NCBI GenBank assembly: GCA_016744475.1
Contig: JADGEH010000020.1
Coordinates: forward strand, 1 to 58,494
Direction of reading: 5' to 3'
DNA: 58,494 bases
DNA from: Thiotrichales bacterium
GTDB taxonomy: Bacteria; Pseudomonadota; Gammaproteobacteria; Beggiatoales; Beggiatoaceae
Each line of letters opens with the position of its first letter. The stretch's first letter is position 1. The notes beneath the pieces are model-generated. The model was not told the DNA's origin and made no database searches. It worked only from the letters and a program-made list of their open reading frames with translations. The position numbers were made by a program, and so were the translations under genes. Shown here piece by piece: positions 271 to 41,600 of the stretch.

Positions 271-678
271 ATGAGTAAAACAAGAATTCATATTGACGAA
301 AGAAAAGTAAGAGAACTCAGGTTTGAAATAAACCTAACTCAAGAAGAAATGGCTGATATTAGCTTAAATAGAAACTGTTATATATCTATCGCCACCATTA
401 AACGGATTGAGTCTGGTCACCCTATATCACAGAAAACATTAAGAAAATTATGCCAGTTTTTTAATGTAGATAAGAGTGCTGTGATTAAAAAAGATGAGTT
501 TTATAAAAATCAACTTCTCTCTCCCTGGAAAAAAACAACCATTAACTGGGGGATGATTACAAACTTGGATAATTCAGCTGAGCATAAAAAAATATCCAGT
601 ATATGCAATGAGCTTCATTCATTGCTCAATGAAAATACTGAAGATGAACAGGTTAAAGTCATCTTCCAAAATGCATAA
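271..678 (+). CDS. XRE/Cro-type helix-turn-helix regulator
   Basis: A 135-residue protein that starts at an ATG preceded by a strong GGGGGAG ribosome binding site. Residues ~10-70 resemble an XRE/Cro HTH: an acceptor helix with TQEEMADIS, a probable recognition segment around ISIATIKRIESG, then SQKTLRKLCQFFNV. The C-terminal half is unlike anything I recognise. The gene is followed after 13 bp by a LuxR-type response regulator, and both precede the R-body genes, so the pair probably forms an operon that controls them. The HTH call is good; the target is inference from position. It could instead serve the flanking repeat-rich region. Confidence 0.75.
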   Translation: MSKTRIHIDERKVRELRFEINLTQEEMADISLNRNCYISIATIKRIESGHPISQKTLRKLCQFFNVDKSAVIKKDEFYKNQLLSPWKKTTINWGMITNLDNSAEHKKISSICNELHSLLNENTEDEQVKVIFQNA

Positions 679-691
679 AAGAGGAAAAGTT

Positions 692-1366
692 ATGGATATT
701 CTTATAGCTGATCAATCAGAATTAAGTATTAGTGCCATGTCTTTTATATTAAAAGATATATTTTCTGGGTGCTTAATTTACACATGCAGTAACTGGAATG
801 ATGTTGAAAAAAAGCTCAACTTAAACCATTCAGATACCCAACCTATAAAAATAGATCTGGTGATATTAGATATATTCATCTTAAGTCAAAACTACCATCA
901 AGACTGTGAACAAAAAAAATGGTATGAATTACTGGAGGGAGTAGTTAGAAAATATAAGCATATACCTGTTTGTATTATTTCAGATTCAGCCGATAAACCT
1001 TATTTACAAAAAGCATTTTCGGCGGGTGCAAAAGGGTATTTATTGAAAACGGAGAGTGTTGAAAAAATCAAAAAAAGATTATTAAACCTTCATGAAGGAA
1101 AAATCCAATATCCAGATCAACTTTTACAGTCTTCCGATACAAAAAAAACCGCTTCAACATTAACTTTGCGCCAACAGGAAATCCTGAAACTGGTGGCTAA
1201 AGGCTATCCCAATAAGACCATTGCAAAACAGTTGGGGCTAACTGAATGCACGGTAAAACGGCATGTGCACAACATCTTTAAGAAGCTTGATGCAAAAAAC
1301 CGGATTGATGCGGTCAATATTGCCAATCTTAATGTCATGTTGTCTGAGCAGCACAGAAGCATGTAA
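692..1366 (+). CDS. NarL/FixJ-type response regulator (REC-LuxR HTH)
   Basis: A 224-residue protein. I chose the ATG at 692 because GAGGAAAAG sits just upstream; a longer reading frame begins at 608 but overlaps the preceding gene. Residues 1-125 form a receiver with phosphoacceptor Asp60 (VILDIF) and the late GYLLK lysine; the usual paired acidic residues near the start are reduced to Asp6. Residues ~150-210 are a LuxR HTH (LTLRQQEILKLVAKG, NKTIAKQLGL, TVKRHVHNIFKKL). No partner kinase is next to it. R-body loci elsewhere are often accompanied by regulators of this kind, so control of the reb genes 226 bp downstream is likely but inferred. Confidence 0.85.
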   Translation: MDILIADQSELSISAMSFILKDIFSGCLIYTCSNWNDVEKKLNLNHSDTQPIKIDLVILDIFILSQNYHQDCEQKKWYELLEGVVRKYKHIPVCIISDSADKPYLQKAFSAGAKGYLLKTESVEKIKKRLLNLHEGKIQYPDQLLQSSDTKKTASTLTLRQQEILKLVAKGYPNKTIAKQLGLTECTVKRHVHNIFKKLDAKNRIDAVNIANLNVMLSEQHRSM

Positions 1367-1407
1367 CACCTATTTGTATTTTTTGCCCCATGCTACCGAA
1401 AATTTAC

Positions 1408-1431
1408 TACTTAAGTATGAGCTTTACTCAT
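1408..1431 (+). promoter_or_regulatory. Tandem palindromes upstream of the first reb gene
   Basis: A perfect 10-bp palindrome TACTTAAGTA (1408-1417) runs directly into ATGAG-CTTTA-CTCAT (1417-1431). A longer-range pair AGAGACT (1458-1464) and AGTCTCT (1494-1500) lies between here and the reb start at 1593. LuxR/NarL-type regulators bind palindromes, and such a regulator ends 41 bp upstream, so this is a candidate operator. That role is inference. Confidence 0.3.
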
Positions 1432-1592
1432 TTTGATGAATTTCCATAGCGTTCACTAGAGACTAAACTGCCTCTCAAGTTATCGCTCTTGCCAGTCTCT
1501 AAATGATTTAGTAAAGGCTATTTTATTAAGTGGAGTCATAGTGAATTTTCATTTAAAGAACCGTGTTCATCATTATTTGTAAGGATTAACTC

Positions 1593-1817
1593 ATGCCGAA
1601 TTCTACTGTGAATGACCAGATTACAGATTCAGTCACACAAACCAATGTCAATGTTGTTGGTGATGCGCCAGCACAAGCATTAGGTACATTATATCAAGTG
1701 GCTGGTCATGCTAATGGTTTAGCCATGCAAAATGCAGTGGCTAATCAACATAATCTAAATCAGTTAAATTCCGTTATTGTTGCTGATGCCATTACTTTAT
1801 TAAAGGCCGGGAAGTAA
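1593..1817 (+). CDS. rebB: R-body subunit, RebB family (short paralogue)
   Basis: A 74-residue protein of the RebB (Pfam 'killing trait') family. Visible family signature: VNDQITDSVTQTNVNVVGDAPA near the N terminus (shown here as separate parts DQITDSVTQTN and VVGDAPAQA), then a GTLYQVAGHANGLAMQNAV helix and NLNQLNSV. RebB-type proteins polymerise into R-bodies, coiled protein ribbons that extend telescopically and can burst membranes. It is shorter than the paralogues at 4275 and 4671 and lacks their C-terminal TTQGxMQ segment. AAGGA precedes the ATG. First structural gene of the cluster after the two regulators. Family confidence is high; whether this paralogue is structural or assembly-related cannot be told. 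Confidence 0.85.
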   Translation: MPNSTVNDQITDSVTQTNVNVVGDAPAQALGTLYQVAGHANGLAMQNAVANQHNLNQLNSVIVADAITLLKAGK

Positions 1818-1869
1818 GTCACACCATTCATAGTGTCATTTAAGCATGAGAATCATATAGGAGAAAGAA

Positions 1870-2349
1870 ATGCCAACTGTACCACCTGGCGGCAGTCCTT
1901 CTCAAGGAGAGCCTAAACCTGAACACAGTGTTTCAAAACCTGCCACTCCTGGAGCGAAAACACCCCCTCATGGAGCAAATCCAGCTGGCGGGGGGGCAAA
2001 GCCTGCTGCTAATAGTGCAAAAACAGGACATTATGGACATAAAAAACTGGTGTCTGCACAACATAAAACAGCGAATGCTAATAAACATTACGATGTAAAA
2101 GCAGAGGATGTTGAAACTGATTCACAACCATTAACCAATCCATTAGCCGAACAAGCCGCAGCAATGATGCTGGAAGATGTGCGTAGTTTTTCTCAAGGAG
2201 CAGAACAATTATTACTGATAGCGATTGCTAAAGGTTTAGCGAAAGTAGACGCTGGAGATAAAAATGGTGTTGAATTATTAAATCAATGTAAAAACCTCAT
2301 GGAAGAGATTCCAAAATTTGCAAAAAATATAAGTAGTGTTTCAAGTTAA
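1870..2349 (+). CDS. R-body-cluster protein with Pro/Ala/Lys-rich N terminus
   Basis: A 159-residue protein starting at an ATG preceded by AGGAGAAAG. Residues 1-60 are low complexity, rich in Pro, Gly, Ala and Lys. Residues ~90-150 are predicted helical (NPLAEQAAAMMLEDVRSF, EQLLLIAIAKGLAKV). The gene sits 52 bp after a rebB gene and 20 bp before the next gene, in the same direction, so it is very probably in the reb operon. I do not recognise a named family. The bipartite form would fit a linker or assembly factor for the R-body ribbon, but that is inference. Confidence 0.7.
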   Translation: MPTVPPGGSPSQGEPKPEHSVSKPATPGAKTPPHGANPAGGGAKPAANSAKTGHYGHKKLVSAQHKTANANKHYDVKAEDVETDSQPLTNPLAEQAAAMMLEDVRSFSQGAEQLLLIAIAKGLAKVDAGDKNGVELLNQCKNLMEEIPKFAKNISSVSS

Positions 2350-2369
2350 ATTACAAAGGAGTTTATGTC

Positions 2370-3149
2370 ATGCCTAGTAGTGATGAATTTAAATTAGCTC
2401 GTTTATTTGGAGCCCCAACTCTAGATGAAATTAGAAACTTATTTGCTCTAATCGAACAATCAGAGTCTCACGATGAACACTCTGTCAGAAAATCAAAAAA
2501 TAACGGAAAGAAAAATGGCAGTGAAAATTCTAACTCAGTTTACTTAATTGAAACGGATGAGGATATTCGACCGGCCTTTAGAAAAGTAGAAGTCAATGAT
2601 AAATCAGACTATGAGTCGTGTATTCTAGAGTTATCCAGAGATGATCCAGGTTTAATCCTGATGATGAGAAAAGTACATGATTCCAGCGTATCTTCATGTA
2701 TCCGTATATTACCTTTTGCAAAACTCAATGAGATAGCTAAAAAATCAACAGATAACAATAAAGTACATATTACCCTATCTAGCAAAGAATATATTAAGTT
2801 AGATATTTCAGTTAAACCATCATCATCGTATGAACCCCTTTATTCAGTCACAGCTTCAGATAGTTCAAGCATTAATAACATTTCTGACGAAACCAAACTC
2901 ATACTAAAAAACCATCTAGAACAATCAATAGCCCGGATGATTGGACATTATGAACTCCACACATTGACAGAGAAATTTACCCCGGCCAAGGAAAAAACAC
3001 TTGAGGAGAGTCTTAAGACCCAAAAGCAAATCATTCTCACCATGATAGTGGCAGCTTCACTCAATGATATTTTTGACACCATGACCGATAGAGATGGCAA
3101 AACAATCCCTCAGGCCGCTTTAACAGCATTAGACAATTGGCCCATATAA
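2370..3149 (+). CDS. Unrecognised 259-aa protein in the R-body cluster
   Basis: A 259-residue, mostly hydrophilic protein with no signal peptide or membrane segment. AAAGGAG lies upstream of the ATG. Residues ~40-60 are a Lys/Asn/Ser-rich linker. The rest has mixed helix and strand character, with a helical C-terminal half that contains ETKLILKNHLEQSIARMIG and KQIILTMIVAASLNDIFD. No family recognised. It lies 20 bp after the preceding cluster gene. Immediately downstream (3171-3196) is a small hairpin with arms CCCAGT and ACTGGG. Function unknown; its location suggests an accessory role in R-body formation. Confidence 0.65.
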   Translation: MPSSDEFKLARLFGAPTLDEIRNLFALIEQSESHDEHSVRKSKNNGKKNGSENSNSVYLIETDEDIRPAFRKVEVNDKSDYESCILELSRDDPGLILMMRKVHDSSVSSCIRILPFAKLNEIAKKSTDNNKVHITLSSKEYIKLDISVKPSSSYEPLYSVTASDSSSINNISDETKLILKNHLEQSIARMIGHYELHTLTEKFTPAKEKTLEESLKTQKQIILTMIVAASLNDIFDTMTDRDGKTIPQAALTALDNWPI

Positions 3150-3246
3150 AAACCAAAAGACAGAGGTATTCCCAGTGAATAGGTTTTATTACTGGGTAGC
3201 TCTCCAGAATTAAAGGCATATTCTTTATCTAATAAAGAGGCATAGG

Positions 3247-3840
3247 ATGAACATATCAACAGAAAAAACCACAGAAAATCTGATGGCTGAGCATATGAAA
3301 AAAACCGAGCAAGTAATCTCATCTGTATTAACCGAAAAAGCCTCAAAACAACATGAAGATGGCACTAAAACGGTGGTGCATTCTCAAGGTTCCGAAATTC
3401 ATCAAGAAGATAAAAAAGAATCAAAAGAACATCCTACAGCAGATATGGGCTATCAAGACATAATGCTTATTATCAGAAAAGAAATACGCCATGTTATATC
3501 AGAAGATGTCACGCCATTACTAAAAAGTATTCATGGCTCGATACAGGAGGGGGATAAGCACATAGCGATGCCTACAGCCATGACTGATTCTATTCAACCA
3601 GGTATTGATGTGGATGATTTAAAAAAACAAGTATGCTCAGCTGTCATGGATGAAATTCTCCCCCTATTAGAATCATTAGAAAAAGCCGGAAAAGAGCAAG
3701 CTCAAGAACAGGCTCAAGCAGCCTCTGCACCGTCAACAAAAAAAGCCACAAGCTTAGAAGAATTGTCTCAAGAAATGAACAACAAAATCAATCAAAAAAT
3801 CGCCCAACGTCGTGATCGCATTATGTCACTCATTGGCTAA
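3247..3840 (+). CDS. Unrecognised coiled-coil-type protein in the R-body cluster
   Basis: A 197-residue, highly charged protein (Glu/Lys/Gln-rich) with no membrane segment. The ATG is preceded by AAAGAGGCATAGG. Residues ~1-60 and ~125-195 are strongly helical; the C-terminal part (EELSQEMNNKINQKIAQRRDR) looks like a coiled coil. Its stop lies 19 bp before the RebB-like gene at 3860. A hydrophilic coiled-coil protein beside R-body subunits could be a scaffold or regulator of ribbon assembly; this is inference. No named family recognised. Confidence 0.65.
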   Translation: MNISTEKTTENLMAEHMKKTEQVISSVLTEKASKQHEDGTKTVVHSQGSEIHQEDKKESKEHPTADMGYQDIMLIIRKEIRHVISEDVTPLLKSIHGSIQEGDKHIAMPTAMTDSIQPGIDVDDLKKQVCSAVMDEILPLLESLEKAGKEQAQEQAQAASAPSTKKATSLEELSQEMNNKINQKIAQRRDRIMSLIG

Positions 3841-3859
3841 TAAGAATCAGGAAAAAAAC

Positions 3860-4102
3860 ATGTCAGAGAAAAGCACAGTATCTGAAGGGGTTGTAGAAGC
3901 GGCCCCCGCTATGGGCACAGGACAAACCATGATGAGTATGAGTCACTCTATGGGGCTTATGTTTGAGTCTGCTGTTTCTCAACAGCATTTAGATAATATG
4001 ACGACATTAGCCACGACAACCAAAGGTGTTTGTCAATTTTTAGATGTAGATGAACTAGAAAAAGCGAAGCAACTTGTGGAGAGTATGCGTGAAAAAGATT
4101 AG
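3860..4102 (+). CDS. RebB-like R-body protein (divergent)
   Basis: An 80-residue protein. I take the ATG at 3860 (AGGA upstream); a longer frame opens at 3812 inside the previous gene. It matches the RebB family in VVEAAPAMGTGQTMMSMSHS and GLMFESAVSQQHLDNMTTLA, followed by a TTTKGV segment, but lacks the N-terminal DAVTQTN motif of its neighbours. The GLMFE(N/S)AVSxQ block is shared with the 4275 and 4671 proteins. Probably an R-body subunit or assembly variant. Family assignment is good; it is the most diverged of the four. Confidence 0.78.
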   Translation: MSEKSTVSEGVVEAAPAMGTGQTMMSMSHSMGLMFESAVSQQHLDNMTTLATTTKGVCQFLDVDELEKAKQLVESMREKD

Positions 4103-4274
4103 TAAAAGTAATAGTTTTTTTCTCTAAACTGGAATGCCAGGCCGTCTAGAAAATTGTTATACAAGGAAGCGCAGACAAAGAATTCAGTTTTATTATGTTC
4201 TAAAATACTGAGGACATAATCACTGATAAATGGGGTGACACCCAATATTTTCATTATTTATTAGGAGAAGTATC

Positions 4275-4544
4275 ATGCCAGATCACGTCAACCAACAAGT
4301 GACCGATGCTGTGACTCAAACCAATGTCAAAGTCGTTGCAGAATCTCCTGCAATGGCAATGGGTTCGGTTTATCAAACTGCCGCTCATTCTACAGGCTTA
4401 ATGTTTGAAAATGCAGTCAGCAATCAAAACTTACAAAACATGACAGCACAAGCCTTTACGACTCAAGGCATCATGCAAATATATAGTGTGGATACCATCT
4501 CAGATGCCATCGCTATCGCACGCATGTTAAAACAGTCTAGTTAA
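4275..4544 (+). CDS. rebB: R-body subunit, RebB family
   Basis: An 89-residue protein with a full RebB signature: QQVTDAVTQTNVKVVAESPA, AMAMGSVYQTAAHSTGLMFE, ENAVSNQNLQNMTAQAFTTQ and a C-terminal GIMQIYSVDTISDAI. The ATG follows TTAGGAGAAGT. Members of this family assemble into the refractile ribbon known from Caedibacter. It is very similar over its whole length to the protein at 4671, so the two look like a tandem duplication. 172 bp separate it from the upstream reb-like gene, and a strong hairpin (4567-4598) separates it from the next copy. Confidence 0.93.
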   Translation: MPDHVNQQVTDAVTQTNVKVVAESPAMAMGSVYQTAAHSTGLMFENAVSNQNLQNMTAQAFTTQGIMQIYSVDTISDAIAIARMLKQSS

Positions 4545-4566
4545 TCACTAAGGCTGAACCAAAGGT

Positions 4567-4598
4567 GCTTGGGTTAAGTACACATACTTAATCCAAGC
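4567..4598 (+). promoter_or_regulatory. Intercistronic 14-bp hairpin between rebB copies
   Basis: Arms GCTTGGGTTAAGTA (4567-4580) and TACTTAATCCAAGC (4585-4598) pair fully, with one G-T wobble and a CACA loop. No T-run follows, so it is not a classical intrinsic terminator. A structure of this kind between two structural genes could set the subunit ratio by RNA processing or 3'-end protection (inference). Confidence 0.55.
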
Positions 4599-4670
4599 TG
4601 CATCAAACGCGTGTCAAAATAATTAATACTGTGTATGTTCATCGTTCCCCTAGATTGGAGTAAAAATCAA

Positions 4671-4937
4671 ATGCAAAACGTCAATGAAAGTGTAACGGAT
4701 GCCGTTACACAAGCGAATCTTGAAGTAGTCGCTGATGCCCCCGCCATGGCAATGGGTTCGCTATATCAAACCTCAGCCCATTCTACAGGGTTAATGTTTG
4801 AAAATGCGGTGAGTAATCAAAATTTGCAAAGCATGACGGCGCAAGCGTTTACCACGCAAGGCGTGATGCAAGTTTTCAGTGTGGATACTATTTCTGATGC
4901 GATTGGCATCGCACGAATGTTGAAAGCGAGCAGTTAA
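4671..4937 (+). CDS. rebB: R-body subunit, RebB family (second tandem copy)
   Basis: An 88-residue protein if started at the ATG at 4671 (GGAG 11 bp upstream); an in-frame ATG at 4635 would add 12 residues unlike the family. It shares with the 4275 protein the blocks SVTDAVTQANLEVVADAPA, AMAMGSLYQTSAHSTGLMFE, NQNLQSMTAQAFTTQG and the end VDTISDAIGIARMLK. The near-identity points to recent duplication, and different copies may be different ribbon subunits, as RebA, RebB and RebD are in Caedibacter. Last recognisable reb gene; a 13-bp hairpin follows at 4983. Confidence 0.93.
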   Translation: MQNVNESVTDAVTQANLEVVADAPAMAMGSLYQTSAHSTGLMFENAVSNQNLQSMTAQAFTTQGVMQVFSVDTISDAIGIARMLKASS

Positions 4938-4982: not shown

Positions 4983-5018
4983 GGAGTCATTTCATTCATA
5001 AGCACATGAAATGACTCC
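4983..5018 (+). terminator. Perfect 13-bp hairpin ending the reb cluster
   Basis: GGAGTCATTTCAT (4983-4995) and ATGAAATGACTCC (5006-5018) are exact inverted repeats with a 10-nt loop. There is no clear T-run, so rho-independent termination is not certain. It lies 46 bp after the last rebB gene and 38 bp before the reverse transcriptase, so it could end the reb mRNA or be a structured leader for the reverse transcriptase. Confidence 0.5.
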
Positions 5019-5055: not shown

Positions 5056-6066
5056 ATGCATTGGATCGAACAAATCGTCGCAGCGGATAACTGGCAAGCG
5101 GCTTGGAAATGGTTAGAAAGCCGACGTAAAAACAGCCATTACAACAATGACTACTGGCATCTACGTCACCATCGCCAACGCTTGGAGCCGCAAATTATCG
5201 AACAGTTGCGCACGGGCACCTATCACTTTAGCCCCTGCAAGCAATACGATGGCTGTTTAGTCTGGACAGCACAAGATGCTCTAGTACTGAAAGCCATCAC
5301 ATTGGTTCTCACCAAACAGCTCAGCCCACAACTCAGTCAACACTGTTTTCATTTAGCCGGACACGGTGGATCTAAAGGCTGTGTCAGAGCCGTCAATCAG
5401 TGCGTCGATGAGTACCGTTTCGTCTGTCGCAGTGATGTGAATTCTTACTATGCCACCATCAATCACAAGCTATTGAAAAAGCAACTGGCAGGTTTAATTC
5501 CTTGTGACATCGTGTTGGATTTGATCAGCAAAATGCTGGATCGACTGGATGATGTACAGGGCATATTACATAGCGTGGACATCGGCATCAGCAAAGGCAA
5601 TCCGCTGTCGCCCTTATTAGGCGCAATCTATTTACAAGGCTTAGATGATGCTCTGAGCCAATATTGTGATACCCGCGATTTGTTTTATGCGCGGTTCATG
5701 GATGACTGGGTAGTTTTATGTAAAACCCGGCAACAACTACGCACCGTCGTGCGCATCATGAATCAGGTGCTGGAAGCTGTGGAAATGACCAAGCACCCCT
5801 ACAAAACCTATATCGGACGCATTAAGGATTCAGGGTTTGATTTCTTGGGGTATCGCATGGGCCATCGATTAAAACAAGGTTTAACTCTCGCCTGGAAAAC
5901 CTGGGCTAACCATCAAGCAAAACTGCACCAGCTTTATGAGCAAGGTGTTTCGGCAACGGACATTGGGCAGTATGTGAAACGGTGGAAGCGTTGGGTGGAG
6001 AGCGGGGTCGAGGTGTGTTTGGGGTGGGAATTGGAATTTGATCGGGTGGAGCCTCTGTCGGGTTGA
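5056..6066 (+). CDS. Orphan group-II-like reverse transcriptase
   Basis: A 336-residue RNA-directed DNA polymerase. Palm motifs in order: SDVNSYYATINH (~134-145, motif A metal-binding Asp), GISKGNPLSPLLGAIYL (~180-196, motif B; SP rather than the SQ of diversity-generating retroelements), YARFMDDWVVL (~215-225, YxDD-type box as FMDD, catalytic Asp pair) and GFDFLGYRM (~262-270). The N terminus has the FSP...WTAQDALVLKA block of group-II-like enzymes. It lacks an HNH endonuclease and a long maturase domain, and no intron domain V was seen around it, so it is not obviously a mobile intron ORF. No template/variable repeat pair was seen. It lies directly downstream of the reb genes in the same direction. 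Role unknown. Confidence 0.85.
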   Translation: MHWIEQIVAADNWQAAWKWLESRRKNSHYNNDYWHLRHHRQRLEPQIIEQLRTGTYHFSPCKQYDGCLVWTAQDALVLKAITLVLTKQLSPQLSQHCFHLAGHGGSKGCVRAVNQCVDEYRFVCRSDVNSYYATINHKLLKKQLAGLIPCDIVLDLISKMLDRLDDVQGILHSVDIGISKGNPLSPLLGAIYLQGLDDALSQYCDTRDLFYARFMDDWVVLCKTRQQLRTVVRIMNQVLEAVEMTKHPYKTYIGRIKDSGFDFLGYRMGHRLKQGLTLAWKTWANHQAKLHQLYEQGVSATDIGQYVKRWKRWVESGVEVCLGWELEFDRVEPLSG

Positions 6067-38634: not shown

Positions 38635-41355
38635 TTACACCAAACCCAACAAAAGCCCTATTTTTGCTCCCAGTTCACCCAATTTCGCACCGCCGTCACT
38701 CAAATGTTCCAATAATTTATGACTGGCTGTTGCGCCTTTTTGCAAACGCTCGCCCAATTGGCTTAAACGCTTCATCCCCTCTTCTTTACTGTCCGGTGTG
38801 CTCAATGCTTGCGTGGCTTGTTGTGCAAGTTCTAACTCTTTTTGCGCTCGCTGCTGAGCTTCGCTATCCGCTTCCAGCGACACGTCATACAGCAAATCAT
38901 CTAATTGCTTTTGCACATCAGCAATGGCGGCTTCTATTTGCGAATGATCGCCGACCACCACATTTTCCATATTGCCGCCTGCCACCACTACATGATCAGC
39001 ATCTCCACCCACATAAACATGAGTCTGATGTCCTTGTTTCTCGTCTGACATATATTTCCCCAATACTTTATCTAAATCGAACCAATGACCTTGCCCGTCG
39101 GGAAAATGTTGCAGTTTCATGCGTTCATAATCGCGCAATAAACCCAACGGAATCTTGCTGATCGACTCATCACCGAAAGCCCGTTCACTCACCCGATACG
39201 TATCATCCAATACCACCGACGCTTGCATGTCCATCTGCGGCATATTTTCTTTTAATTCCAGCACATGATCACGCAATGCATAAAAATATTGCACCGCATC
39301 CGCACCACTGACCCACAGCGATAAACGGCGCAAATGATAACTCGCAGTGACCAAAGCACGGGCTTGATACGAAGTGCTTTGTAACTGCACACCGTTTTGC
39401 CACACCCGCTGCCCTGCTGTATCGCTAATGATTTCCTTATGATGCATGACGATTAAGCCCGGCATGATATGGCGCGGCAAAAAGCCCGTAAATGCCAACT
39501 CATACGCCAACGCCTGACGTTTATCAAAACTGTGCAAAGCGGTTTTATTTTCTTCAGGCAAGCGAGCAGGAATAATCAATTGATGCCTATCCAAGCGATA
39601 ACACAACTTAAAATACACCATCGCATCCAATAGAAAATCACATAAATCAGCGGGATACATAAAATGCGCAGGAAATCGAATAAATTTATTTGGCTCAAAC
39701 GCCACCTTTTTCGAGCCTAACATCTGTTCCACATTCGCCACACTCAAACGCCCGCCTTGCTGGCGGGTTTGCTGGGCATAAATCAGCGCGTATACCCCAT
39801 ACGTCAACCAATGCGGGTCTAGCACCAAGGTATTTCTAAACGCATGGCAGAGTAAACCAGGAAAGGAACTGGCAATGCCCAAATTATCCAGTAATTTCAA
39901 CAAACTCTCTGCACCCAGTCCGGTGGCTTGACTCACACCCTGTTTCTCGCATAAAGCTTCGTACTCACTTTTGGGCAACACCGGGTCGGTTTTCGCACGT
40001 TGTTCAAAGGCTTCAATGACTTTCAAATCCGCTGTCAGCAAAGCATGATGTTGTTGAGTATTAATCTGCTGCAATTGCGCATGAAACACCTCCATAAAAT
40101 CCGCAAACTGGCGTTGATAACGCGGCTCGGCTCGGCAATGTACACAAGACAAAGGATAAAATCCCACAATATTAGGATATTGCACTTGCAGCGTGGCTAA
40201 ATCCAAACGCACAGGTTCTTGGTCATCCTTATTGCCGACCAGTAGCACAGGGGCGTTATCGCCAAAACTGCGCACATGTTCCAGCCAATATTCTGCCTGC
40301 TGATTGGCTTCTACTTCGGCACGTCCACACAACAGCAACACATACACACAACTGCTGCGCAAGAAAAATTGATGCGTGGCATGAGCCACCACTTGTCCAC
40401 CAAAATCCCATAAATCCGCTTGCAAAATGTCGCTGACCGCATAATGGTGAATATCCACGCCCGGTGTCATGTCTTCCTTGCCTTCTGTGACAGGCTTGTT
40501 ATACACCGTCCGAATCAGCGAGGTTTTCCCCGCCGCACCATCGCCAATAAAAATCGCCCGCACACGGTTCAGTTTGCGCGTGGTTTTCGCGGCTATTTCT
40601 TTTAAACGGGCATTGATTTCTGTTGGGCTGAGCTTCAATACTTCTTCGGACAATAAACAAGAGTCTCGTGCCAACTGTTCGTCCCAATCTTCACCCCGCC
40701 AACGGGCCTCGAACCAATCCGCCCAATAATCAAAACCTGATGTACTTAACTGGCGTAATTCACGTAAAAAGCGTGTTTGTTCGGCTTGAAATAAATCGTC
40801 ATAAGACAAGGTTAAAAAATCAATAACACTTTGATTTTTTTCTAAAAAAACGATATAATCTTGCGCTTTAATTTGTGTACTATCGGTGTAGGCGTAGGCG
40901 GCGGCGGCGTTGGCGTTGGCGGCGTTGGCGGCGTTGGCGGCGTAGGCGGCGTTGGCGGCGTTGGCGTTGGCGTTGGCGTTGGCGGCGTTGGCGGCGTTGG
41001 CGGCGTTGGCGGCGTTGGCGGCGTTGGCGGCGTTGGCGTTGGCGTTGGCGGCGGCGTAGGCGGCGGCGGCGGCGTCGGCGGCGGCGGCGGCGGCGGCGCG
41101 AGCAGCATGCCCGATGTCCCGATCTTTCCATCGCGCTGCACTCCAAGCACATTGCCCAGCCCGTAGCACCTTCAGCAAATACTCTTCACGTCGTTCTGCT
41201 GTCCAAAACCACAAAAAATCTCGCCCCTTTTCTACATCTCGGCTTAACGTCGGCAGCATCAACAAGGCGATACGTGCAGCAAAGGCCGCACTCAGCCAAG
41301 GATCGTTTAAGGCTTTAAGGCGTTGTTTGATCTCTTCTCGACTTAATGTAGACAT
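38635..41355 (-). CDS. Roco (Roc-COR) GTPase with long Ala/Asn repeat
   Basis: A 906-residue protein from the ATG at 41355 (TAGGAGAAAAA upstream); the frame stays open to 41484 but without family support. Residues 1-83 are helical. Residues ~84-155 are an Ala/Asn (AAN, AN) repeat with a few Tyr. Residues ~265-440 form a Roc Ras-like GTPase: P loop GDGAAGKTS (271-279), DFGGQ (G3), NKDD (G4). COR follows (~440-760), with PGLLCHAFRNTLVLDPHWLT. The C terminus has a strand repeat VYVGGDADHVVVAGG, ENVVVGD, then a coiled coil and a hydrophobic end GAKIGLLLGLV. Roco proteins are switch GTPases; some bacterial ones may act in defence. Role here unknown. Confidence 0.9.
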   Translation of the reverse strand: MSTLSREEIKQRLKALNDPWLSAAFAARIALLMLPTLSRDVEKGRDFLWFWTAERREEYLLKVLRAGQCAWSAARWKDRDIGHAARAAAAAAADAAAAAYAAANANANAANAANAANAANAANAANANANANAANAAYAANAANAANANAAAAYAYTDSTQIKAQDYIVFLEKNQSVIDFLTLSYDDLFQAEQTRFLRELRQLSTSGFDYWADWFEARWRGEDWDEQLARDSCLLSEEVLKLSPTEINARLKEIAAKTTRKLNRVRAIFIGDGAAGKTSLIRTVYNKPVTEGKEDMTPGVDIHHYAVSDILQADLWDFGGQVVAHATHQFFLRSSCVYVLLLCGRAEVEANQQAEYWLEHVRSFGDNAPVLLVGNKDDQEPVRLDLATLQVQYPNIVGFYPLSCVHCRAEPRYQRQFADFMEVFHAQLQQINTQQHHALLTADLKVIEAFEQRAKTDPVLPKSEYEALCEKQGVSQATGLGAESLLKLLDNLGIASSFPGLLCHAFRNTLVLDPHWLTYGVYALIYAQQTRQQGGRLSVANVEQMLGSKKVAFEPNKFIRFPAHFMYPADLCDFLLDAMVYFKLCYRLDRHQLIIPARLPEENKTALHSFDKRQALAYELAFTGFLPRHIMPGLIVMHHKEIISDTAGQRVWQNGVQLQSTSYQARALVTASYHLRRLSLWVSGADAVQYFYALRDHVLELKENMPQMDMQASVVLDDTYRVSERAFGDESISKIPLGLLRDYERMKLQHFPDGQGHWFDLDKVLGKYMSDEKQGHQTHVYVGGDADHVVVAGGNMENVVVGDHSQIEAAIADVQKQLDDLLYDVSLEADSEAQQRAQKELELAQQATQALSTPDSKEEGMKRLSQLGERLQKGATASHKLLEHLSDGGAKLGELGAKIGLLLGLV
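40891..41106. repeat. GC-rich 9-bp/6-bp tandem repeat inside the Roco gene
   Basis: About 216 bp made of GTTGGCGGC and GTTGGC units (plus-strand reading), with scattered GTAGGCGGC and GCGGCG units. On the coding strand these read GCC GCC AAC, giving Ala-Ala-Asn and Ala-Asn. All units are multiples of three, so slippage would change repeat number without breaking the frame. The long open frames on other strands here are by-products of the repeat. Confidence 0.9.
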
Positions 41356-41477
41356 TTTTTCTCCTATCGGTGGCGTATGAGTACAGAGCCAAGCCCATTT
41401 TGACGCTGTACTATAGGTTAAGCTATTTATCCGCAGATGAGCGCAAATGAGCAATGAGGGAATTGAGGAGAGGGAGC

Positions 41478-41600
41478 AAAGCAAAAAGGTGTGGTTTTGA
41501 GGCGGTTTTTTGAGACGAATAGCAGGCTATTTTTTGATAAAAAGCGGAAAAACAGGGCGAAATCCACGCTTTTGCAGCCGATGCCCCCTGGCAACCCGTC
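41478..41600. mobile_element. Partial palindromic element, GCAAGGGG type, inverted
   Basis: Carries the shared core in reverse (TTTTTTGAGACGAATAGC, TTTTTTGATAAAAAGCGGAA) and an eroded right end (GATGCCCCCTGGCAACCCGTC to 41600). The left end is degraded beyond GCAAAGCAAAAAGGTGTGG. It lies between the Roco start region and the stop of the GGDEF/EAL gene (41603), again at a gene end. Confidence 0.65.

Follow-up and report, generated by a model that had tools for sequence, protein, structure and literature searches.

A seven-gene R-body (Reb) cluster with three conserved partner genes in a probable sulfur bacterium of the Gammaproteobacteria

The left end of contig C178 of a Thiotrichales bacterium (JADGEH010000020.1 of assembly GCA_016744475.1; 58,494 nucleotides, analysed over its full length and referred to as the window) carries a seven-gene R-body (Reb) cluster that combines four genes of the RebB family with three conserved partners and quite probably builds a coiled ribbon, predicted to break membranes. 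The three partners, here named P4, P5 and P6, lie between the first and second reb genes and constitute a conserved module rather than a set of random neighbours, as their families recur in the same order in reb loci of other bacteria. The cluster is a well-supported, ordinary addition to the R-body gene clusters in an unexpected host, and the partner module, above all P5 and P6, is the useful part of the finding. As protein springs, R-bodies are of interest to biotechnology, but little is known about their accessory proteins; partner families kept in order across phyla, together with a natural fusion of P5 to RebB, provide a short list of testable ribbon parts.

Gene layout and the four Reb proteins

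The window is an entire contig of a 5.34 Mb genome (253 contigs, 99.99% complete) in which SoxB (859 bits against a cut-off of 550) and DsrA (580 against 393) are both over their cut-offs, so that the label of probable sulfur bacterium, given in an earlier reading of the sequence alone, is reasonable. Nine plus-strand genes, P1 to P9, occupy positions 271-4937, all of them intact open reading frames (ORFs) and each with a purine-rich ribosome-binding site; the gaps between successive genes from P3 to P9 are 52, 20, 97, 19, 172 and 126 bp. The sequence-only reading had placed four RebB-family proteins here in one direction, and all four exceed the curated 24-bit cut-off of Pfam PF11747, our test for the family: P3 (1593-1817, 74 amino acids (aa); 77.8 bits, E 6.8e-22), P7 (3860-4102, 80 aa; 46.4 bits, E 4.1e-12, over profile positions 12-66), P8 (4275-4544, 89 aa; 98.2 bits, E 2.8e-28) and P9 (4671-4937, 88 aa; 93.6 bits, E 8e-27). 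The starts at 3860 and 4671 are the likely ones, and no RebB-family gene beyond these four was found in the 5.34 Mb genome. Four reb genes on one strand inside 3.4 kb constitute a cluster under the definition of at least three used in PMC13430693, and family, copy number, gene order and partners all support the reading of the locus as an R-body locus. Its description as complete is borne out for the seven-gene core P3-P9, with no ORF of at least 50 aa running off the left contig end, but cannot be carried further left because the locus sits at that end.

Reb proteins are described as having the motifs QITD, KxxxD/E and NAV and few Cys or Trp (PMC13430693). At these places P8 has QVTD, KVVAE and NAV; P3 (DQITD and NAV) and P9 (SVTD and NAV) are without KxxxD/E, and the divergent P7 is without all three, including the N-terminal signature. 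P3, P7, P8 and P9 contain 0, 1, 0 and 0 Cys residues, respectively, and no Trp. In a tree of 72 Rebs from 19 chosen loci and the window (91 columns, rows of 130 aa or more excluded, many forks unresolved), P3 and the first-position Rebs of all 19 loci form one clade of 20 rows (support 100/100) spanning Bacteroidota, Alpha- and Gammaproteobacteria; by this sequence grouping, the first-position Reb is a cross-phylum class of its own. Main Rebs group mostly by host lineage and so appear to have been duplicated afresh in each. P7 and several other Rebs that follow P6 (the Bacteroidota rows of 75-83 aa and those of L069 and L087) have long branches and unsure places. Among the best 120 of 844 P8 homologues, the top match is a 93% identical protein on a 540-base contig, and the best named matches belong to Bacteroidota (79-81%). 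In another genome of the same class, the only Reb found is a mid-chain RebB domain (residues 122-188) in a 312-aa protein (L107:5959-6894).

P8 and P9 are sisters in the tree (89/76), consistent with an in-cluster duplication, and are 81% identical in amino acids with a nonsynonymous difference (pN) of 0.105 and a synonymous difference (pS) of 0.72, giving a pN/pS of about 0.15; the pair is under purifying selection, the corresponding dN/dS of 0.05 being only rough because synonymous sites are near saturation. This ratio and the seven intact ORFs with ribosome-binding sites make it very improbable that the cluster is a decaying, silent acquisition, an explanation that draws on its low G+C content and on its being in the only reb-bearing genome of 36 searched in the family. 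On the reading we prefer, that of a functional R-body cluster, P8 and P9 would polymerise into the ribbon, and P3 and P7 would likely serve as minor or assembly subunits.

Partner genes P4, P5 and P6

The proteins between the first and second Reb had been reported as unrecognised; none has an assignment over any cut-off, but profile searches do recognise them as conserved partners of reb genes. A profile of P8, P9 and 14 homologues matched at least 592 stretches, of which 545 were confirmed and the best 80 kept, yielding 75 distinct named loci (46 from Chryseobacterium, genus labels being taken from the records). Iterated profiles, run on the 4990 ORFs of these loci and of L005-L013 (stretches of between a few and 14 kb, each centred on a Reb), recovered 64 P4, 45 P5 and 52 P6 ORFs. 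The P4 family is present in 63 of the 75 named loci, P5 in 42 and P6 in 51, and the order Reb-P4-P5-P6-Reb, read from labelled plus-strand genes, is kept in 39, comprising 31 of the 46 Chryseobacterium loci and 8 of the 29 others, which include three gammaproteobacterial metagenome-assembled genomes (MAGs) and one Saprospirales MAG. Loci with at least two Rebs nearly all contain P4 (63/65), and the 12 without it are nine single-reb Chryseobacterium loci and those of Tahibacter, Burkholderia sp. WSM2232 and Pseudomonas indica. All stand-alone partner matches have a Reb no further than 2.5 kb away on their own strand (P4 64/64, P5 43/43, P6 52/52, with two P5-RebB fusions counted apart), a limited test because every locus was Reb-centred, and all 64 P4 matches (one from a locus outside the 75) are directly downstream of a Reb at no more than 400 bp. 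Since the same order recurs in reb clusters of distant bacteria, the three partners are probably parts of the device. In a sample of 369 genomes of the class, searched for Reb, P4 and P5 in three equally large draws that listed identical handles, Reb was found in four genomes including the window's own; P4 and P5 occurred together in two, both reb-positive, and neither was found in a reb-negative genome.

P4 (1870-2349, 159 aa) combines a proline-rich N-terminus without predicted structure and a two-helix hairpin (helices 91-127 and 132-158). Its profile finds HP1.2 of the Azospirillum brasilense group 1 cluster (E 4.8e-6); a clean profile of HP1.2 in turn gives matches to two families, P4 (91.7%, E 7.8e-7) and Reb (94.0%, E 1.4e-7), so that P4 is probably a remote Reb-like protein, the direct match between P4 family and Reb being weak (4.5%, E 0.009). 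P5 (2370-3149, 259 aa) is modelled by AlphaFold2 as a beta-rich domain with a C-terminal helical tail (predicted local distance difference test score (pLDDT) 82.1, predicted template modelling score (pTM) 0.83); its fold matches are weak, with no close solved structure. Among 33 aligned family members, Pfam matches are to RebB in two and SdpI in one, the remaining 30 having none. The two RebB matches reflect ORFs in which a P5-like N-terminus is joined to RebB (residues 237-288), in Chryseobacterium sp. ISL-6 (L047:11553-12455) and C. paridis (L026:11827-12729), each of them past an ordinary reb cluster, at a distance of a few kb. P6 (3247-3840, 197 aa) has a variable N-terminus and a conserved C-terminal part and is the most distant of the three (best single-sequence E 4.9e-06), with weak Pfam matches to 11 families, each from a single member. 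A single-sequence search of 5.8 billion proteins with P5 and P6 returned only P5 and P6 themselves. We found no description of the P5 and P6 families, the fixed order or the P5-RebB fusion in the R-body literature available to us as text, figures and supplements (among them the figure with the Kordia context in PMC3583457) lying outside its scope.

Relation to known reb clusters and the proposed ribbon

The reb cluster of Pseudomonas aeruginosa PA14 (rebD, rapA, rebP1, rebP2), which makes R-bodies (PMC8322103), likewise comprises RebD, RapA, further genes and two main Rebs, and by gene numbers its order appears to be rebD-rapA-unknowns-rebP1-rebP2. Architecture and position, rather than sequences, suggest that P3 belongs to the RebD class and P4 to the RapA class. 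In PA14, RebP1 and RebP2 are accompanied by RapA in the insoluble R-body fraction, where PA14_27675 was also present at a lower level in one strain background, and RapA co-localises with RebP1; PA14_27650, PA14_27660 and PA14_27675 are described as not conserved (PMC8322103). A 2026 survey assigns RapA to group S4, among the secondary Reb proteins, and describes a group 2/3/S4 synteny type with main Rebs, a RebD-like group 3 Reb and a proline-rich S4 accessory protein (PMC13430693). The placement of P3 in the first-position clade and the proline-rich tail and hairpin of P4 would fit this type if, as the survey's text suggests, P3 corresponds to group 3 and P4 to S4. Hypothetical proteins that lack Reb homology (HP1.1, HP2.2-2.4) were left out of that survey, so its secondary groups may contain P4-like proteins but would not contain P5 or P6.

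Chryseobacterium and Kordia clusters (among L015-L072; L025, L036) likewise have the arrangement Reb-P4-(P5)-P6-Rebs. They differ from the window in that Kordia loci are without P5 and full-order Chryseobacterium loci have 4-7 Rebs after P6 as opposed to three. Single-Reb Chryseobacterium loci (L035, L064, L071, L073, L076, L078, L080, L084 and L085) are without P4, P5 and P6 and mostly share a similar setting of their own. Group 1 clusters, exemplified by the A. brasilense plasmid (L089; PMC3583457, where HP1.1-1.4 and HP2.1-2.4 are defined), also have main Rebs, a short Reb and, as a match to the P4 family, HP1.2, but unlike the window they put the main Rebs first. HP1.1 and the 175-aa protein of L089 are not similar to P5 or P6, nor did an HP1.1 profile of four sequences resemble the P4, P5 or P6 alignments (hhalign E 0.09-0.8). 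Assignment of the window locus to Group 1 was rejected, as none of its three partners resembles the HP1.1 (about 360 aa) by which that group is recognised in PMC3583457. The Group 2 pattern comprises HP2.1 and HP2.2, often accompanied by a sigma factor and by a regulator of the Crp type (PMC3583457); neither of the latter two, which are frequent rather than required in Group 2, is among the ten ORFs at the locus. Caedibacter taeniospiralis plasmid pKAP298 encodes a member of the RebB family that shares 50.6% identity with P8 across 89% of the P8 length; there the Reb is plasmid-borne in a Paramecium endosymbiont, the only place where RebC is found according to PMC3583457.

From these likenesses, we predict a coiled protein ribbon that would spring open and rupture the membranes of any cell by which the bacterium had been ingested. 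A structural or storage polymer that does not break membranes and has no action on grazers would suit a bacterium for which no host or grazer is known, but we judge it improbable, as the Reb family, copy number and partner set resemble those of R-body-producing clusters reported to affect eukaryotes (PMC8322103, PMC5527310). P4, as a proline-rich tail on a helical hairpin, P5, as a beta domain on a helical tail, and P6 would likely ride on the ribbon or assemble it. A ribbon-bound head is most readily proposed for P5, whose domain is joined to RebB in two relatives. Since the cluster contains a conserved module, one family of which also occurs fused to Reb, such R-bodies probably consist of more than polymerised Reb proteins. 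A tentative extension, to which we give slightly less than even chances, is that this R-body type is a multi-part machine found from Bacteroidota to Gammaproteobacteria, with a cross-phylum first Reb, main Rebs duplicated by lineage and often preceded by a single divergent Reb, and three dedicated partners, in which P5 would be the ribbon-bound head, sometimes in one chain with RebB, that meets the target membrane.

Several observations weigh against the preferred reading of a ribbon-building cluster with three partners. The partners are not universal, P4 being absent from 12, P5 from 33 and P6 from 24 of the 75 loci, and these counts are not independent because the loci were chosen by P8 similarity and 46 are from Chryseobacterium. 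The other two of the four reb-positive genomes in the class sample have neither P4 nor P5 by profile search, and neither group 1 clusters nor the Ruegeria cluster yielded a P5 or P6 match. Nor is the Reb that follows P6 always divergent: in L043, L045 and L059 it is an ordinary main Reb, which in L043 and L045 is the only Reb at that place. The P4 model is weak outside the hairpin (mean pLDDT 70, pTM 0.43), and RebD was not detected in the PA14 R-body fraction (PMC8322103). One of the two reb-positive class genomes without a P4 or P5 match, G289, has a group 1-like cluster whose HP1.2 is found by the P4 profile (E 1.9e-4).

Partners missing from many reb loci, the fast variation of P5 (18-28% identity between the window protein and its 32 aligned relatives) and its lack of a close solved match could also point to a passenger module that does not belong to the ribbon machine, such as toxin cargo or a set of regulators. 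We regard this as unlikely in view of the fusion of P5 to RebB in two genomes, the Reb-likeness of P4 via HP1.2, the kept order of three genes sitting between Reb genes, and the co-localisation with RebP1 of RapA, itself grouped with the secondary Reb proteins (PMC13430693, PMC8322103).

Regulation, acquisition and neighbouring genes

Upstream of the reb genes, the HTH regulator and LuxR-type response regulator named by the sequence-only reading were confirmed as P1 (271-678, plus strand, 135 aa), an XRE-type protein (HTH_3 E 5.1e-08, 33.3 bits against a cut-off of 23), and P2 (692-1366, plus strand, 224 aa), a NarL/LuxR-type protein (GerE 3.7e-18, Response_reg 1.2e-08, scanned from start 608; 692 is the likely start as judged by the ribosome-binding site). 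That reading called them the locus's own regulators: both are present, 13 bp apart on the same strand, but the regulator role is assigned by position, and the best paralogues of P2 in the genome are 35-38% identical. On this assignment, P1 and P2 would likely hold the operon off until a signal arrives. The end of P2 is 226 bp from the start of P3, and this measured gap (1367-1592) is probably the reb promoter region, although no plus-strand sigma-70-like site was found in it.

P2-like response regulators follow the last Reb at a distance of up to 600 bp in 27 of the 75 loci (24 of the 46 from Chryseobacterium, both from Kordia and one from Saprospirales); in 40 of the 75, one is found at most about 1.1 kb from a Reb. 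Those scanned in L055 and L075 are Response_reg+GerE proteins. In two scanned loci (L055, L036), the response regulator differs from P2 in being downstream, on the other strand and beside a histidine kinase. AraC-type genes lie upstream in L043 and L045, and sigma-type genes in L069 and L086. Published regulators are PraR and the Crp/Fnr-type RebR in A. caulinodans (PMC5527310) and RcgA and the sigma factor FecI2 in PA14 (PMC8322103), and the XRE and NarL-type pair of the window differs from those named for other groups (Crp/Fnr, sigma factor). Reb clusters of different hosts thus come with different regulators around a core that is retained.

Reb was found in one of 57 genomes of a sample of relatives, namely the window's own, with none in 35 others of the family or in 21 further genomes, so that acquisition is likely. 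The locus has a G+C content of 37.3% as opposed to 44.9% in the rest of the window, where the lowest stretch of the same size has 40.5%. In a P5 tree, the window protein joins a Chryseobacterium-dominated clade of 23 rows, a placement on a long branch that is not firm (89/91). The reb cluster was likely acquired laterally as a block, with the donor uncertain. It adds a likely sulfur-oxidising gammaproteobacterium to the reb hosts, the rest of its family being without reb in the sample searched, and a literature search pairing "R-bodies" with "sulfur bacteria" found none.

Between the last reb gene and the next gene is a perfect 13-bp inverted repeat with a 10-base loop (4983-5018, read from the sequence). 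It was not listed by the terminator scan and is not a standard intrinsic terminator because no T run follows; it could be a transcript end or an element linked to the reverse transcriptase downstream. The latter, a UG4-group enzyme (5056-6066, plus strand; PADLOC RT_UG4, 340.8 bits, E 1.6e-102) and candidate anti-phage gene, begins 118 bp after the last reb gene, and a second copy on contig C130 is 64-67% identical with an internal stop. Elsewhere in the window, positions 38635-41484 on the minus strand encode a 949-aa protein that, as read from its translation, contains a long tract of Ala/Asn-rich repeats and is GTPase-like in its middle part.

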